Source of the DNA: Caulobacteraceae bacterium PMMR1 | Lineage (GTDB): Bacteria > Pseudomonadota > Alphaproteobacteria > Caulobacterales > Caulobacteraceae | DNA length: 64,000 nt | Reading direction: 5' to 3' | NCBI GenBank assembly: GCA_000733915.1 | Contig: JPOM01000001.1 | Span: forward strand, 186,001 to 250,000 | In this document: piece by piece, positions 45,012 through 52,337 of the stretch | Layout: the number at the start of each line of letters is the position of its first letter | How positions within the stretch are numbered: position 1 is the stretch's first letter | The notes under the pieces: model-generated | Told to the model about the DNA's origin: nothing | What the model saw: only the letters and a program-made list of their open reading frames with translations | The model's database searches: none | Translations under genes and position numbers: made by a program

Positions 45012-47855
45012 TCAGCGCGCCGCGCGGGCCGGGGCGCGGGTCACGGACACCCGGAGGGCGGGGGCGGGCGCCTCGGCCTCCATGACGGCGAGAAGCTCGG
45101 CCTTCAGCCCGGCCACGCGCCGGGGATCGGTCAGCTTGCCCCCCTGCTCGTCCACCACATAGAAGGCGTCCACCGCCCGCTCGCCGTAGCTGTCGACATG
45201 GGCGGAGAGCAGGGACAGCCCCGCCCGGGCGAAGGTCTGCGCCAGATCGCCGAGCAGCCCCGGGCGGTCGCGGCAGGAGACCTCGATGACCGTCGCGTGC
45301 TCCGAAGCTTCGTTGTCCAGGGCGACTTGCGCGGGGACGGTGAAGGCGGAGCCCCGCCCGTAGTCCCGCCGGGCCGCCGCCTGGCTGCGCACCGGCTCGC
45401 CGCGGGCGGCGGCCTCCAGGGTGCGGAGCAGGCGCTCCAGCGCGCCTGGACTGTCGGTCCCGAAGGGCTGGCCCACGGCGTCCTGCAGGTGGAAGGTGTC
45501 GAGCGCCTGGCCGGCGGTGGAGGTGTAGATCCGCGCGCCCATGATGTTGGCCCCAAAGCTCGCGATCACCTGGGCGAGGTCGGCGAACAGCCCCCGCCGG
45601 TCGCGGGCGGCCACGGCGACCTCCACGGCGTTGCGGGCCGGGTCGCGCTGGGCCGCGGCGGCCGCGCCGCCCTGTTCGGCGGCCTGGCGCACCAGGGCGT
45701 AGTGCATGGCCTGCTCGGCCTCAGGGAAGGCGGTGAAGTAGGCGTCCTCCATCTCCCGCGCCCAGGCGGTCAGGCCCGGATCGTCGTCCAGCGCAGCGCC
45801 GGCGAGCTTGGCCCGGGCGTTCTCGGCCGCCGCCTGCTGCTCGCGCCGGACGTGGGCGATCGGGTCTGAGCCCCGCCCGCCCCGGAACACCGCCTCCGTG
45901 CCGGCGTAGAGCTCGCGCAGCAGCTGGCCTTTCCAGCCGTTCCAGACCCCTGGGCCCACGGCGCGAATGTCCGCCACGGTGAGGATGAGCAGGAGCCGCA
46001 GGCGCTCCGGCGTCTGCACGATGCGCGCGAAGTCCGAGATGGTGCGGGGGTCCGCGACGTCGCGCTTCTGGGCGAAATCGGACATGATCAGGTGGTGCTC
46101 GACCAGCCAGGCCACCAGGTCGGTGCGCTCGGGCTCGAGCCCCAGCCGCTCGCACGCCGCGCGGGCCGAGCGCGCCCCCGCCAGGCTCTGGCCGCCCTCG
46201 CCGCCCTTGCCGGTGTCGTGCAGAAGCATGGCCAGGTAGAGCGCCTCGCGATCGCCGATCAGCGGGAAGACGGCGGTCGCCAGCGGATGATCCTCCGCCA
46301 GCCGCCCGTGCTCGATGTCGTCGATCAGGCCCACGGCGCGCAGGGTGTGCTCGTCCACGGTGTAGGAGTGGTACATGTTGAACTGCATCTGGGCCACCAC
46401 CCGGCCGAACTCCGGCAGGTAGCGGCCGAGCACCCCGCACTCGTTCATGAGCGTCATCACGCGGTAGGGTTTCTTGGCGTGCGCCAGCACATCGAGGAAG
46501 CAGCGCGCCGCCTCGGGGTCGCGCCTCAGCCGCCCCCCGATCAGGTGCAGCGAGCGCATGGCCGCCGAGACGGCGTCCGGGTGCAGGTCGAGGTCGCGCC
46601 GGTCCGCCACCTTGAACAGGCGCAGGAGGTTGACCGGGTCGCGCTCGAAGGTCTGGACCCCCTCCACGGTCAGGCGGCCGCCCTCCTCCAGGAAGCCGGC
46701 TTCCAGCGGGCGGGGGCGTCGGCGTCGGCGTCCCGGCAGGAAGCGCGACAGGCCCTGGGGCGCGCCCTTGGCCTGCTCCGCCTCCAGCTTGGCGGCGAAG
46801 ATGCGGGTCAGCACCCCCACCTCGCGCGCAATCAGGAAGTAGCGGCGCATGAAGCGCTCCACCGCCGCGGTGTCGGCGTCGCCGCCGCCGCCGGTCGCGC
46901 CGTACCCCATGCGGCGCGCGATCTCGGGCTGCAGATCGAAGCTCAGCCGCTCCTCCGCCCGGCCGGTGGCGAAGTGCAGGTGGCAGCGCACCGCCCATAG
47001 GAAGTCGAAGGCGCGCAGGAAGGCGCGCACCTCGCGGCGGTCGAAGGCCTCCAGCCGCACGAACTCCGACCCGTCGTCGGAGGGGTGCAGGTCGCGGGCG
47101 ATCCAGAACAGGGTGTTCAGGTCGCGCAGGCCGCCCTTGCCCTCCTTCACATTGGGCTCGACGAGATAGCGGGTCGCGCCCGCACGGGCGTGGCGCTCGT
47201 CCCGCTCGGCGAGCTTGGCGGCCACAAAGGCCTGGCCTGCGCCCTCCGCCACGTCCTTGCGGAAGCGCCGCTTCAGCTCCCCCGCCAGCGCCTCGTCGCC
47301 GGTCAGGCGCCGCGCCTCCAGAAGGGCTGTGCGGATGGTGAAGTCCGCCCGCGCCAGGCGGATGCACTCCTCGACCGTGCGCGAGGCATGGCCCACTTTG
47401 AAGCCCAGGTCCCAGAGCGCATAGAGCATGAACTCGATCACGCTCTCGATGTGGGCGGTGGGCTTGTAGGGCCGCAGGAACAGGAGATCGAGGTCCGAGA
47501 AGGGCGCCAGCGCGCCCCGGCCATATCCGCCGACCGCCATGACCGCCATGCGCTCGCCCTCGGTCGGGTTGCGCGCCCGAAAGACGTGCACGGTGGTGAA
47601 GTCGTAAAGCGCGCTGACCACCTCGTCGGTGATGCCGCTGAGCAGGCGCGCGGTCTCGATGCCCCCCGCGCCGGCCTCCAGCCGCTCCTTGGCGATCATA
47701 CGGCCGCGGAACAGGGCGGACTTCAGGATGTCCATCGCCCGGCGGCGCTGCTCGGCGGGATCGCCCGCGGCGTCGAGGGCGGCGGCGCTCAAGAGGGCAC
47801 GCAGCCGGTGCCCGTCGACGACATGCTCCAGGCGCGTGGGCTTCAGGCGGGCCAT
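45012..47855 (-). CDS. glnD: Bifunctional uridylyltransferase/uridylyl-removing enzyme GlnD
   Basis: Senses glutamine and modifies the PII proteins. 947 residues, complete. The nucleotidyltransferase motif is GGYGRGALAPFSDLDLLFL (about 108-126). The central PII-UT domain has EPNVKEGKGGLRDLNTLFWI. The HD phosphohydrolase has MLLHDTGKGGEGG and VEHHLIMSDFAQKRD. Two C-terminal ACT domains begin NAVEVAVAARDRRGLFADLA and ATVIEVSCRDRPGLLGDLAQ. The Arg-rich insert RFLPGRRRRRPRP (about 375-390) is a local oddity. rpoN and ptsN elsewhere in the window belong to the same nitrogen network. Confidence 0.96.
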   Translation of the reverse strand: MARLKPTRLEHVVDGHRLRALLSAAALDAAGDPAEQRRRAMDILKSALFRGRMIAKERLEAGAGGIETARLLSGITDEVVSALYDFTTVHVFRARNPTEGERMAVMAVGGYGRGALAPFSDLDLLFLRPYKPTAHIESVIEFMLYALWDLGFKVGHASRTVEECIRLARADFTIRTALLEARRLTGDEALAGELKRRFRKDVAEGAGQAFVAAKLAERDERHARAGATRYLVEPNVKEGKGGLRDLNTLFWIARDLHPSDDGSEFVRLEAFDRREVRAFLRAFDFLWAVRCHLHFATGRAEERLSFDLQPEIARRMGYGATGGGGDADTAAVERFMRRYFLIAREVGVLTRIFAAKLEAEQAKGAPQGLSRFLPGRRRRRPRPLEAGFLEEGGRLTVEGVQTFERDPVNLLRLFKVADRRDLDLHPDAVSAAMRSLHLIGGRLRRDPEAARCFLDVLAHAKKPYRVMTLMNECGVLGRYLPEFGRVVAQMQFNMYHSYTVDEHTLRAVGLIDDIEHGRLAEDHPLATAVFPLIGDREALYLAMLLHDTGKGGEGGQSLAGARSARAACERLGLEPERTDLVAWLVEHHLIMSDFAQKRDVADPRTISDFARIVQTPERLRLLLILTVADIRAVGPGVWNGWKGQLLRELYAGTEAVFRGGRGSDPIAHVRREQQAAAENARAKLAGAALDDDPGLTAWAREMEDAYFTAFPEAEQAMHYALVRQAAEQGGAAAAAQRDPARNAVEVAVAARDRRGLFADLAQVIASFGANIMGARIYTSTAGQALDTFHLQDAVGQPFGTDSPGALERLLRTLEAAARGEPVRSQAAARRDYGRGSAFTVPAQVALDNEASEHATVIEVSCRDRPGLLGDLAQTFARAGLSLLSAHVDSYGERAVDAFYVVDEQGGKLTDPRRVAGLKAELLAVMEAEAPAPALRVSVTRAPARAAR

Positions 47856-47923: not shown

Positions 47924-48579
47924 TTACGCGCCGTAGCCCAGCGCCTGCTGGATGAAGCGGTAGGTTTCCGCCCGCTCGCAGGCGCAGCCGTACATCCGTC
48001 CCGCCTTGTCGCTCCAGATTAGGGTGGGGTAGCGCAGCTCGATGCCGTTGTCGGCCAACAGCGGCATGAGCCTGTCGACCAGCACGCGGCTCTTCTCCAC
48101 CAGGGCGGCGCGGGCCGGGTCGGTGTCGCCGGAGGGCAGGCCCTCGCCGGTCAAGGCCTCCACCGGCATGGATGTCCAGCGCTCGTAGGTCTTCCAGTCG
48201 CGCTTGGCCCAGAGCTCGGCGACGCCGGTGCGCTCCGGCGCGGTGGAGCGGGCCCGCCGGGCGACCATGATGACGCGGGTGTCTATCCTGGCCTTGTGCA
48301 GGGCCGGGAACTGCGTCTCCTCAAAGCGGATGCAGTCCGGACAGCTGCGGAAGCTGATCATGTAGAGCGCCCGGTTGGACAGGTGCGGCGAGACCCAGCC
48401 CGCGCCTTGCAGCAGGCGGTGGATCTCGCCGGCGTGCTTGACGATCGGGCGGATGCCGGCGGCCTCGGCGCTGGCGGGGGGCGGGGGCTCGGCCGGGGAG
48501 GCGACCTGCGCGGCCAGCAGGCCGGGGGCGAAAGCGAAGGCCAGGGCGAACCCGGCGGCGAGGGGGCGAGCAGGCGCAT
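47924..48579 (-). CDS. Exported thioredoxin-fold protein with CPDC motif, with a -1 frameshift
   Basis: From ATG 48579 the reading MRLLAP continues, after adding one base to the G5 run (plus strand) at 48562-48566, as LAAGFALAFAFAPGLLAAQ, a good signal peptide. The following region AGIRPIVKHAGEIHRLLQGA and WVSPHLSNRALYMISFRSCP leads to CPDC (C80/C83 in the restored 218-residue protein). The tail is LRYPTLIWSDKAGRMYGCAC. This fits a periplasmic DsbC/thioredoxin-like oxidoreductase. Without the correction only the last 145 residues are read from an internal ATG at the CPDC strand. Confidence 0.7.
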
Positions 48580-48675
48580 GGACGAGGGCTCCGGGCCGGA
48601 CCTGAAGACCGTCATTTGGCCCATCGCGCCGCCGCCGGGAAGGGGCTCGGCCGCCCAGGCTTTCTGAAGCCTGGT

Positions 48676-48801
48676 TCAGCTGTGCGCCAAGCTCAGCACC
48701 GCCCAGGCGCAGGCGGCCACCGCCCCGGTGCAGAGCAGGGCGTAGAGCGCCGGCCGCTGCACCCGCCGGCGCGTTCGGGGCGCCCGATCGGCCTCGCTCA
48801 T
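48676..48801 (-). CDS. 41-residue single-TM membrane peptide coupled to mmsA
   Basis: Short gene overlooked by length filters. ATG 48801 overlaps the mmsA stop as ATGA, and the frame runs to TGA 48676. A basic N-terminus (MSEADRAPRTRRRVQRP) is followed by one hydrophobic helix (ALYALLCTGAVAACAWAVLS) and LAHS. By the positive-inside rule the N-terminus is cytosolic. The stop-start overlap implies translational coupling to mmsA. It might assist an inner-membrane complex. The alternative is a chance frame, but codon use is strongly GC3-biased like real genes here. Confidence 0.6.
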   Translation of the reverse strand: MSEADRAPRTRRRVQRPALYALLCTGAVAACAWAVLSLAHS

Positions 48802-50294
48802 CGCATGGTGGGGATGACGAAGGCGGAATCCTCGACCAGGCCCTCGGGCCAGCGGGCGGTCACGGTCTTGATCTTGGTCCAGAAGCGAACGCCCTCCATG
48901 CCGTGCTGGTTGGTGTCGCCGAAGGCCGAACGCTTCCAGCCGCCGAAGGTGTGGTAGGCGACCGGGACGGGGATGGGCACATTGATGCCGACCATGCCGA
49001 CGTTGACCCGGGCGGCGAAGTCGCGCGCCGCACGGCCGTTGCGGGTGAAGATCGCCACCCCGTTGCCGTACGGGTGCTTGCTGGGCAGCTCCAGCGCCGC
49101 CTCGAAGCTGTCGGCGCGCACCATCTGCAGCACCGGGCCGAAGATCTCCTCCTGGTAGGTGCGCATCTGCGGCGTCACGTGGTCGAACAGACTCGGCCCG
49201 ATGAAGAAGCCCTTCTCATAGCCCTGCAGCTGGAAGCCGCGGCCGTCCACCACCAGCTCCGCGCCTTCGTCCACGCCCAACTGGATGTAGTTTTCGACCC
49301 GCTGCTTGTGCGCGGCGTTGACCACGGGCCCGTACTGGGCGGCGGGGTCGGTGGAGGTCCCGACCTTCAGCGTCTCAATCTCCGCCACGAGCCGCTCGCG
49401 CAGGTCCTCGGCCGTGCGCTGGCCCACCGGAACGACCACCGGCAGCGCCATGCAGCGCTCCCCCGCCGAGCCGAAGGCCGCTCCGGCCAGGTCCTTCACC
49501 ACCTGGTCGAGGTCCGCGTCGGGCAGGACGACGCCGTGGTTCTTGGCCCCGCCCATGGCCTGGACGCGCTTCCCCATGGCCGCGCCGTGAGCGTAGACAT
49601 AGTGGGCGATGTCGGAGGAGCCGACGAAGCTGATGGCCTGCACCGCGGGGTGTTGCAGGATGGCGTCGACGGCGACCTTGTCCCCGTGCACCACGTTCAG
49701 GACGCCCGCCGGCGCGCCGGCCTCCATCATCAACTCGGCCAGGCGCACGGGCACCGAGGGGTCGCGCTCGCTGGGCTTCAGGATGAAGGTGTTGCCGCAG
49801 GCGATGGCCACGCCGAACATCCACATCGGGATCATGGCGGGGAAGTTGAACGGGGTGATGCCGGCCACCACGCCCAGCGGCTGGCGCATGGAGTAGACGT
49901 CGATCCCGGGCCCGGCGCCCTCGGTGAACTCGCCCTTCAGCGCATGCGGGATGCCGCAGGCGAACTCGATGACCTCCAGCCCGCGCTGCACGTCGCCCCG
50001 GCTGTCGGCCAGCACCTTGCCGTGCTCCGAGGAGAGCAGCTCCGCCAGCTCGTCCATGCGCGCCTCCACCAGGCGCTTGAACTCGAACATGACCCGCGCC
50101 CGGCGCTGCGGGTTGACGATGGACCAGTTGGTGAAGGCGCGCTGGGCGGCCTGAACGGCGAGGTCGAGCTCCTCGGCCGTGGCCAGGGGCGCCCGCGCCT
50201 GCACCTCGCCGGTGTTGGGATCGTAGATGTCGCCGAAGCGGCCCGAGCGTCCTTCCAGGGCTTGACCGTTCACGAAATGGCGCACTTCGCGCAT
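48798..50294 (-). CDS. mmsA: Methylmalonate-semialdehyde dehydrogenase (CoA-acylating)
   Basis: Oxidises methylmalonate semialdehyde (valine catabolism) and malonate semialdehyde to propionyl-/acetyl-CoA. 498 residues from ATG 50294. Blocks: NHGVVLPDADLDQVVKDLAG preceded by MGGAKN, which replaces the ELGGK of other aldehyde dehydrogenases and is typical of MMSDH. The catalytic Cys is in GSAGERCMALP; further blocks are ITPFNFPAMIPMWMFGVAIA and GWKRSAFGDTNQHGMEGVRF. The branched-chain dehydrogenase operon at 24.9-29.9 kb feeds the same valine pathway. The 41-residue peptide gene follows with a 4-base overlap. Confidence 0.95.
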   Translation of the reverse strand: MREVRHFVNGQALEGRSGRFGDIYDPNTGEVQARAPLATAEELDLAVQAAQRAFTNWSIVNPQRRARVMFEFKRLVEARMDELAELLSSEHGKVLADSRGDVQRGLEVIEFACGIPHALKGEFTEGAGPGIDVYSMRQPLGVVAGITPFNFPAMIPMWMFGVAIACGNTFILKPSERDPSVPVRLAELMMEAGAPAGVLNVVHGDKVAVDAILQHPAVQAISFVGSSDIAHYVYAHGAAMGKRVQAMGGAKNHGVVLPDADLDQVVKDLAGAAFGSAGERCMALPVVVPVGQRTAEDLRERLVAEIETLKVGTSTDPAAQYGPVVNAAHKQRVENYIQLGVDEGAELVVDGRGFQLQGYEKGFFIGPSLFDHVTPQMRTYQEEIFGPVLQMVRADSFEAALELPSKHPYGNGVAIFTRNGRAARDFAARVNVGMVGINVPIPVPVAYHTFGGWKRSAFGDTNQHGMEGVRFWTKIKTVTARWPEGLVEDSAFVIPTMR

Positions 50295-51310: not shown

Positions 51311-52332
51311 TGTCGAAGCTATGAAGGTTATTCACCCGGGATCGGGCTGAGAGAGTGGGGGTGCGAAGCTCCAACCTCTAGCCGTGAGACCCCGGATGAA
51401 CATGCATAAGAATGCCCGGCTGACGCCGTCTGGTCGAGCCTTGTTGGCCGGTCGTGTTCAGTCTGGCTGGACGGTGAAGGCGGCGGCTTTGGCTGGCGGT
51501 GTATCGTTGCGGACGGCCTATAAGTGGCTGGGCCGGTGTCGTCGGGAGCCGAGCGAAGACTTCAAGGATCGCAGCTCGGCGCCCCGACGATGTCCGCGCC
51601 GGATTTCGCCGCAGCGCTTGGCCGAGATCGAGCGGCTGCGACGCCAGCGCATGAGCGGCGTGGCGATCGCCCGCCAGCTGGACATGCCGCGCTCGACGGT
51701 GGGCGCGATCCTGCGGCGGCTCGGCCTGGGCAAGCTCTCGGCGCTGCAGCCGCGCGAGCCGGTGATCCGCTACGAGCGGGAGCGGCCCGGCGAGCTGCTG
51801 CACCTGGACATCAAGAGCCTCGGCAAGATCGACGGCGTCGGCCACCGCATCACCGGGGATCGCGCCGGTCAGAGCCGCAAGCGCGGCATCGGCTGGGACC
51901 ACCTGCACGTCGCCATCGATGACGCCTCGCGGCTGGCCTACACGGAAGTCCTGCCCGGCCTGACCGGCGAAGACGCCGCCGGCTTCCTGGACCGCGCGCT
52001 CGCCTGGTACGCCCGCCTGGGCGTAAAGGTGGAGCGGGTGATGACCGACAACGGCTCGGCCTACGTCTCAAGGCGCTTCGCCCAGACCCTGACGGCCGCC
52101 GGCGTGCGGCACGTCCGAACCCGGCCCTTCCGGCCGCGCACCAACGGCAAGGCCGAGCGCTTCATCCAGACCAGCTTGCGCGAATGGGCCTACGCACGGC
52201 CCTATGTCTCATCAGACCAACGCGCCGCCGCCATCGGACCCTGGACCGACGCCTATAACCTCGTCCGCCCCCACGCCGGCATCGGAGACCTCAGCCCCTG
52301 GCAAAGGCTGAACAACCTCCTTGGCAACGACA
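51311..52332 (+). mobile_element. IS481-family insertion sequence, complete (1022 bp)
   Basis: Bounded by imperfect terminal inverted repeats: TGTCGAAGCTATGAAGGTTA at the left, and the reverse complement of the right end reads TGTCGTTGCCAAGGAGGTTG (about 16 of 22 positions match, extending two bases further). Flanked by 6-bp duplications GCTAGG. It holds a single transposase gene covering 92% of its length. The element looks intact and recent: the frame is open, both ends are present and the duplications are identical. Only one copy is in the window. Confidence 0.93.
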
Positions 52333-52337
52333 GCTAG
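51396..52337 (+). CDS. IS481-family transposase
   Basis: 313-residue DDE transposase. The N-terminal helix-turn-helix regions read AALAGGVSLRTAYKWLGRCR and RQLDMPRSTVGAILRRLGLG. The catalytic core has HLDIKSLGKI (first Asp), VMTDNGSAYVSRRFAQTL (second Asp) and RPRTNGKAERFIQTSLREW (Glu). ATG 51396 is used; an in-frame codon at 51384 adds four residues. Its last codon AGC and the TAG stop (52335-52337) lie partly outside the element, in the CTAG of the target duplication. The stop is therefore host-supplied, as reported for this family. Confidence 0.93.
   Translation: MNMHKNARLTPSGRALLAGRVQSGWTVKAAALAGGVSLRTAYKWLGRCRREPSEDFKDRSSAPRRCPRRISPQRLAEIERLRRQRMSGVAIARQLDMPRSTVGAILRRLGLGKLSALQPREPVIRYERERPGELLHLDIKSLGKIDGVGHRITGDRAGQSRKRGIGWDHLHVAIDDASRLAYTEVLPGLTGEDAAGFLDRALAWYARLGVKVERVMTDNGSAYVSRRFAQTLTAAGVRHVRTRPFRPRTNGKAERFIQTSLREWAYARPYVSSDQRAAAIGPWTDAYNLVRPHAGIGDLSPWQRLNNLLGNDS

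Follow-up and report, generated by a model that had tools for sequence, protein, structure and literature searches.

The 41-residue open reading frame (ORF) that follows mmsA in the window, by which we mean the whole 64,000-nt stretch of DNA analysed here, is very likely a real gene, and its product is very probably an unnamed small membrane protein with a patchy distribution among relatives of Caulobacter. The first-pass annotation had proposed a gene for a small membrane protein that overlaps the preceding gene; the ORF, the ATGA overlap, the basic N-terminus and the hydrophobic stretch were all verified. The features concerned are the following.

48676..48801, minus strand: 41-aa ORF, predicted single-pass membrane protein (ORF reading, family profile and dN/dS in relatives)
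48798..48801, minus strand: ATGA, the 4 nt shared by the stop of mmsA and the start of the peptide ORF (sequence reading)
48798..50294, minus strand: mmsA, CoA-acylating methylmalonate-semialdehyde dehydrogenase (TIGR01722, PF00171)
48655..48674, minus strand: 8-bp hairpin directly 3' of the peptide stop (fold inspection)
47924..48579, minus strand: DsbG-like thioredoxin-fold protein, next gene downstream (CPDC and CAC motifs, model and fold matches)
45012..47855, minus strand: glnD, next after the DsbG-like gene on the same strand (GlnD, HD and ACT domains)

The ORF runs from ATG to TGA and translates as MSEADRAPRTRRRVQRPALYALLCTGAVAACAWAVLSLAHS, in which the motif QRPALY (residues 15-20) is followed by one hydrophobic stretch, with a best Kyte-Doolittle mean over 19 residues of 2.02. 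By the positive-inside rule, a single helix preceded by positive charges should adopt the N-in/C-out orientation, and because residues 1-17 of the peptide contain six Arg and only two acidic residues, a Glu and an Asp, this orientation is predicted here. Third-position GC (GC3) of the ORF is 95%, the same as in mmsA, which matches TIGR01722 at E 1.6e-205 and whose start was taken as ATG 50294 (its longest frame begins at GTG 50504). The DsbG-like gene lies ~100 nt beyond the peptide on the same strand, and glnD follows it.

A single-sequence search with the window peptide in 149 genomes of its own taxonomic family returned no match of convincing quality in any other genome, the best one (E 0.0021, in one genome of the 149) having a stop inside. 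Taken alone this search would have suggested that the peptide is not conserved; because it found nothing convincing, the search was moved to the regions downstream of mmsA, which is present in 142 of the 149 genomes. There we scanned for ORFs of 28-90 aa with hydrophobicity >1.5 and a start at -25 to +400 nt, using 110 mmsA places, which are part of the mmsA matches; 108 ends could be read automatically, and the place L139 is interrupted by a contig end. The scan gave seven ORFs, all seven with the same motif, and at the other 101 of the 108 automatically scanned ends no ORF fell within these limits; an eighth, in G030, was identified by hand reading. The search downstream of mmsA that the first-pass annotation had suggested therefore finds a short, hydrophobic, motif-bearing ORF at 8 of 110 mmsA places, in five genera. 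In four of the eight, from three genera, the start of the peptide overlaps the stop of mmsA (ATGA in the window, TGATG in G003 and G024, GTGA in G030), so that conservation of frame and overlap, the point on which the annotation could have fallen, leaves the ORF standing. The members share the signature [KRQS]-[RN]-P-x-x-[FY] ahead of one hydrophobic helix and are 32-53 aa long in the own family, and the window peptide fits this signature.

A first profile, of seven rows, picked up additional copies that are not next to mmsA, and a 19-row profile found stand-alone members in at least 22 of the 149 genomes, spread over 10 of 22 genera and all at E 5.3e-11 or better; these 22 carriers are the training genomes of the profile or members of the same genera, and since the best 50 candidates per genome were scored, the carrier counts are lower bounds. 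With the genus of each row held out, 17 of the 19 rows came out ahead of every untrained frame, at E 8.3e-5 or better. The two exceptions were the window copy (E 0.038, seven untrained frames above) and that of G015 (E 0.12, nine above); within its own genome, and with its own genus held out, the window peptide reached E 0.025 at rank 2. Because these held-out values are only 0.025-0.038, the membership of the window copy leans on the gene order mmsA, peptide, DsbG-like gene, which is the same in the window as in G003, G024, G082 and G015. Judged by sequence, the peptide family is solid, with the window copy as a divergent member. Ten weaker profile matches (E 7.8e-5 to 0.0092) rank below the 22 carriers. 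Two of them are N-termini of DsbG-like proteins (G017 and G032); the remaining eight are other frames, mostly long, and that in G031 outscores both of these putative fusions.

Moreover, dN/dS was below 1 in 12 of 12 pairs from three genera, ranging from 0.00 to 0.88, where the pairs are not independent and the genera g4 and g17 contribute one pair each with four changes apiece. In genus g2 the substitutions are concentrated in the tail after the helix, and across the family it is the N-terminal motif and the helix that are conserved, the C-terminal tail being variable. The window peptide scored below the cut-off of every Pfam and NCBIfam model. Four other members reached no cut-off in Pfam, three other members had no NCBIfam match of any kind, that to MmpA included, and two peptides of the second family described below had no NCBIfam match at cut-off. 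In NCBIfam, the window peptide came closest to the morphogenic membrane protein MmpA (NF046122, E 0.0022), with 18.1 bits against a cut-off of 32 bits. Literature searches of open-access full text found nothing on the peptide family. We describe the peptide family as new, but as belonging to a known kind, the small single-pass membrane proteins, and not as a new kind of system.

The coupling to mmsA that the first-pass annotation had put forward stands as far as the stop overlap exists, but a tie to mmsA as such fails, since the peptide is not behind mmsA in 14 of the 22 carrier genomes. For G022 this assignment means that no mmsA match was present at E 1e-120, and for G047, G056 and G064 that mmsA is on other contigs, the G064 contig ending upstream of the peptide. 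The gene upstream of the peptide is folC in G035 (TIGR01499) and, by eye, in G001, sdhB in G012 and in G027 (iron-sulfur domains), and a cyclophilin gene in G011 and G040; the other carriers whose upstream gene was read have varied genes there. In two genomes of genus g12 (L180 and L176), the peptide begins a single base beyond the stop codon of a gene for a cyclophilin-type isomerase. Instead of mmsA, the commonest neighbour is the downstream gene: the DsbG-like gene directly follows the peptide in 13 of the 22 carriers, five of them with mmsA upstream, G035 with folC and G027 with sdhB. The peptide and the DsbG-like gene thus recur together in different surroundings. Of the other carriers, three have the DsbG-like gene elsewhere in the genome (G011, G040, G091), and in six it is absent at E 1e-8 (G010, G012, G016, G026, G030, G039). 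The DsbG-like gene is more widespread than the peptide, being present in 101 of the 149 own-family genomes. Among the best 80 of 87 DsbG-like loci, mmsA is just upstream in at least 28, some of the loci being too short to tell, and 19 of these 28 are from Phenylobacterium; seven of the same best 80 have a scoring stand-alone peptide, and all seven come from genomes in the alignment or from their genera.

The domain model of the window DsbG-like protein (192 residues) has a pLDDT of 93, and its top eight Foldseek matches are all DsbG, the E. coli disulfide isomerase, with which it has the thioredoxin fold and a CPxC motif in common (VIA Z 13.7-14.2, 162-163 residues aligned). The identity is only 12-17%, the neighbour protein has an added conserved CAC motif, unlike DsbG, and the model aligns from DsbG residue 59 or 60, leaving uncovered the first ~58 residues of DsbG, whose dimerisation domain is N-terminal. 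CPDC is found in the window protein and in most of 13 aligned rows. Despite many invariant residues in its family, no Pfam or NCBIfam model scored above cut-off for the DsbG-like protein, and a PDB sequence search with its profile gave a chance match only (E 0.44). In genera g18 (1 of 1) and g20 (6 of 6), the N-terminus of the DsbG-like protein is a hydrophobic segment with an RP motif that resembles the peptide, which suggests, by sequence likeness, a fusion of peptide and DsbG-like protein in these two genera. Just two of these segments score with the peptide profile, those of G017 (E 2.2e-4) and G032 (E 0.00115); five of the six g20 segments do not, and those of g20 may simply be ordinary signal peptides.

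In the window, ATG 48579 of the DsbG-like gene and its conserved domain are in different frames, and the gene is intact in relatives. The zapE gene of the same genome (G000:C1:1571118-1572217, L376) is likewise broken, its sequence being divided over two overlapping frames. Together these breaks suggest assembly indel errors, although they may be true frameshifts, or, for zapE, a sign of gene decay. That the peptide and the DsbG-like gene are a single gene split by the assembly was considered and rejected: the peptide has its own stop and the DsbG-like gene its own signal-like segment, which it also has in G027, a genome with both genes intact.

As to function, we infer that the gene product would be a small single-pass protein inserted in the inner membrane, with its basic N-terminus in the cytoplasm and its short C-terminus in the periplasm, and that it would be translated by termination-reinitiation from the preceding gene, here mmsA. 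The partners indicated by gene order (the DsbG-like protein and ZapE, and cyclophilin and sdhB in two genomes each) suggest a service to the maturation of proteins at the inner membrane, and because the peptide has no room for an enzyme and its neighbours point to such a service, a tether or adaptor is favoured as its activity. The peptide would then be a membrane-embedded tether or adaptor that binds a co-transcribed maturation factor of the envelope or of membrane proteins, and in the window genome this partner would be the DsbG-like thiol-disulfide protein encoded next. We hold this assignment, with the DsbG-like protein as the partner, tentatively. Small membrane proteins are often overlooked by annotation and mostly have no partners assigned, and here gene order and a possible natural fusion provide a testable partner list. 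The peptide is a good new target for membrane-protein work.

The DsbG-like protein may not have been the original partner. A rather unlikely alternative is that the peptide originally served ZapE, anchoring this ATPase, which has no transmembrane domain, to the membrane or to YidC, and that copies elsewhere, such as that after mmsA, were relocated. In a sample of 249 genomes of the order, of which the best 30 candidates per genome were scored, the 19-row profile matched at least five genomes, four from the own family and one from outside it (G326, E 6e-4). The G326 relative (L194 1501-1620, 31 residues) shares an ATGA overlap with a tadA-like deaminase gene, not with zapE. A search with the G326 peptide in the taxonomic family of that genome, a second family of the order, matched 13 of 137 genomes at E<=0.05, and in 11 of the 13 the peptide stands directly upstream of zapE, with a 4-nt overlap (xTGA) in 10 genomes and a longer one in the other; the identity of zapE was checked with Pfam for two of the 11 genes and read by eye for the others. 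The exceptions are G326 itself and an unrelated match in G392, and a second match in G404 is also unrelated. Four of the 11 zapE-adjacent peptides have no start codon at the motif, and their frame begins farther upstream. Profile-profile comparison links the peptides of the own family with those of the second family (90%, E 1.6e-6, 32 columns), and the order peptide, DsbG-like gene, zapE in G015 and G035, and by eye in G001, links the two contexts within the own family. ZapE is described as lacking a transmembrane domain, located at the inner membrane and interacting with Oxa1, and YidC is proposed as a possible bacterial partner (PMC7314023).

Several results do not fit an origin with ZapE. 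At E<=0.01 the second-family profile missed all 22 carriers of the own family, its matches in five of the 149 own-family genomes being within longer frames; thus homology of the two sets is probable from their sequences, but not proven, and the only direct link between them is G326, where the peptide overlaps the deaminase gene. In the window genome zapE is 1.3 Mb away from the peptide, with no peptide found before it, so that the 4-nt overlap with the AFG1-like ATPase gene seen in the second family is absent there. Across the class, a motif-bearing peptide was absent from the start of zapE at all of 30 loci, two of which carry an unrelated frame of 107 aa there, and the second-family profile matched two of 240 genomes, by short matches inside long frames only. 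It is likewise doubtful that the peptides form an order-wide family of membrane adaptors of ~30-50 residues that recruit or organise maturation factors (ZapE/AFG1, DsbG-like) at the inner membrane. If they did, adaptors would be translationally coupled to membrane-protein maturation machinery, to ZapE/AFG1 in one taxonomic family and to the DsbG-like proteins, in places as a fusion, in another. The overlap with zapE in the second family, taken with the description of ZapE in that paper (PMC7314023), makes the membrane targeting of ZapE testable there.

Returning to a tether for the DsbG-like protein, the position of the ORF just upstream of the DsbG-like gene would also be expected if translation of the ORF regulated that gene and the peptide itself had no job. 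We regard such a leader peptide as improbable. The arrest motifs of leader peptides are C-terminal, whereas the peptide is conserved in its N-terminal motif and helix and variable in its tail, and nine of the 22 copies have no DsbG-like gene directly downstream. The hairpin after the peptide stop, which might have served such regulation, was not picked up by the terminator scan, and its region is no more stably folded than shuffled sequence (z -0.77). Small leader coding sequences have been reported in Caulobacter (PMC4117421).

It is quite improbable, too, that the window ORF arose by chance and merely resembles a family that is real elsewhere. Long frames arise readily in high-GC DNA, and the held-out scores of the window copy are weak, but its place, strand and order match those of the four relatives named above, and it combines the motif with the 4-nt overlap. 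Motif followed by helix was found in just six of 388 other small hydrophobic ORFs, a set that still includes second-family relatives. We also scanned the window and 385 loci for ORFs of 30-60 aa with hydrophobicity >1.9 with an ATG or GTG start placed at -1 or +2 relative to the stop codon of a long frame (>=200 aa). Among 2,840 frame ends, which include spurious antisense frames, there were 17 instances counting duplicates, or five distinct sequences, and all five are members of the peptide family; in one of them (G040) the long frame differs from the real upstream gene. This count is a biased rate, because many of the loci were chosen for holding family members.

That the peptide is dedicated to mmsA and assists valine catabolism is very unlikely. 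The peptide is behind mmsA in eight genomes of five genera, four of them with the stop overlap, but most mmsA ends scanned have no such ORF and most copies of the peptide are elsewhere. Moreover, MmsA is a soluble cytoplasmic enzyme. Finally, it is extremely unlikely that the peptide is a small divisome inhibitor of the type of SidA and DidA, which are described as tiny inner-membrane division inhibitors of Caulobacter crescentus with 29 and 71 residues (PMC4211646), like the peptide in size and in coming from related bacteria, but induced by DNA damage, whereas the window ORF rides on a metabolic gene, the comparison here being one of descriptions. Elsewhere in the window, an intact frame for an IS481 family transposase (NF033577) is located at 51384..52337 on the plus strand.
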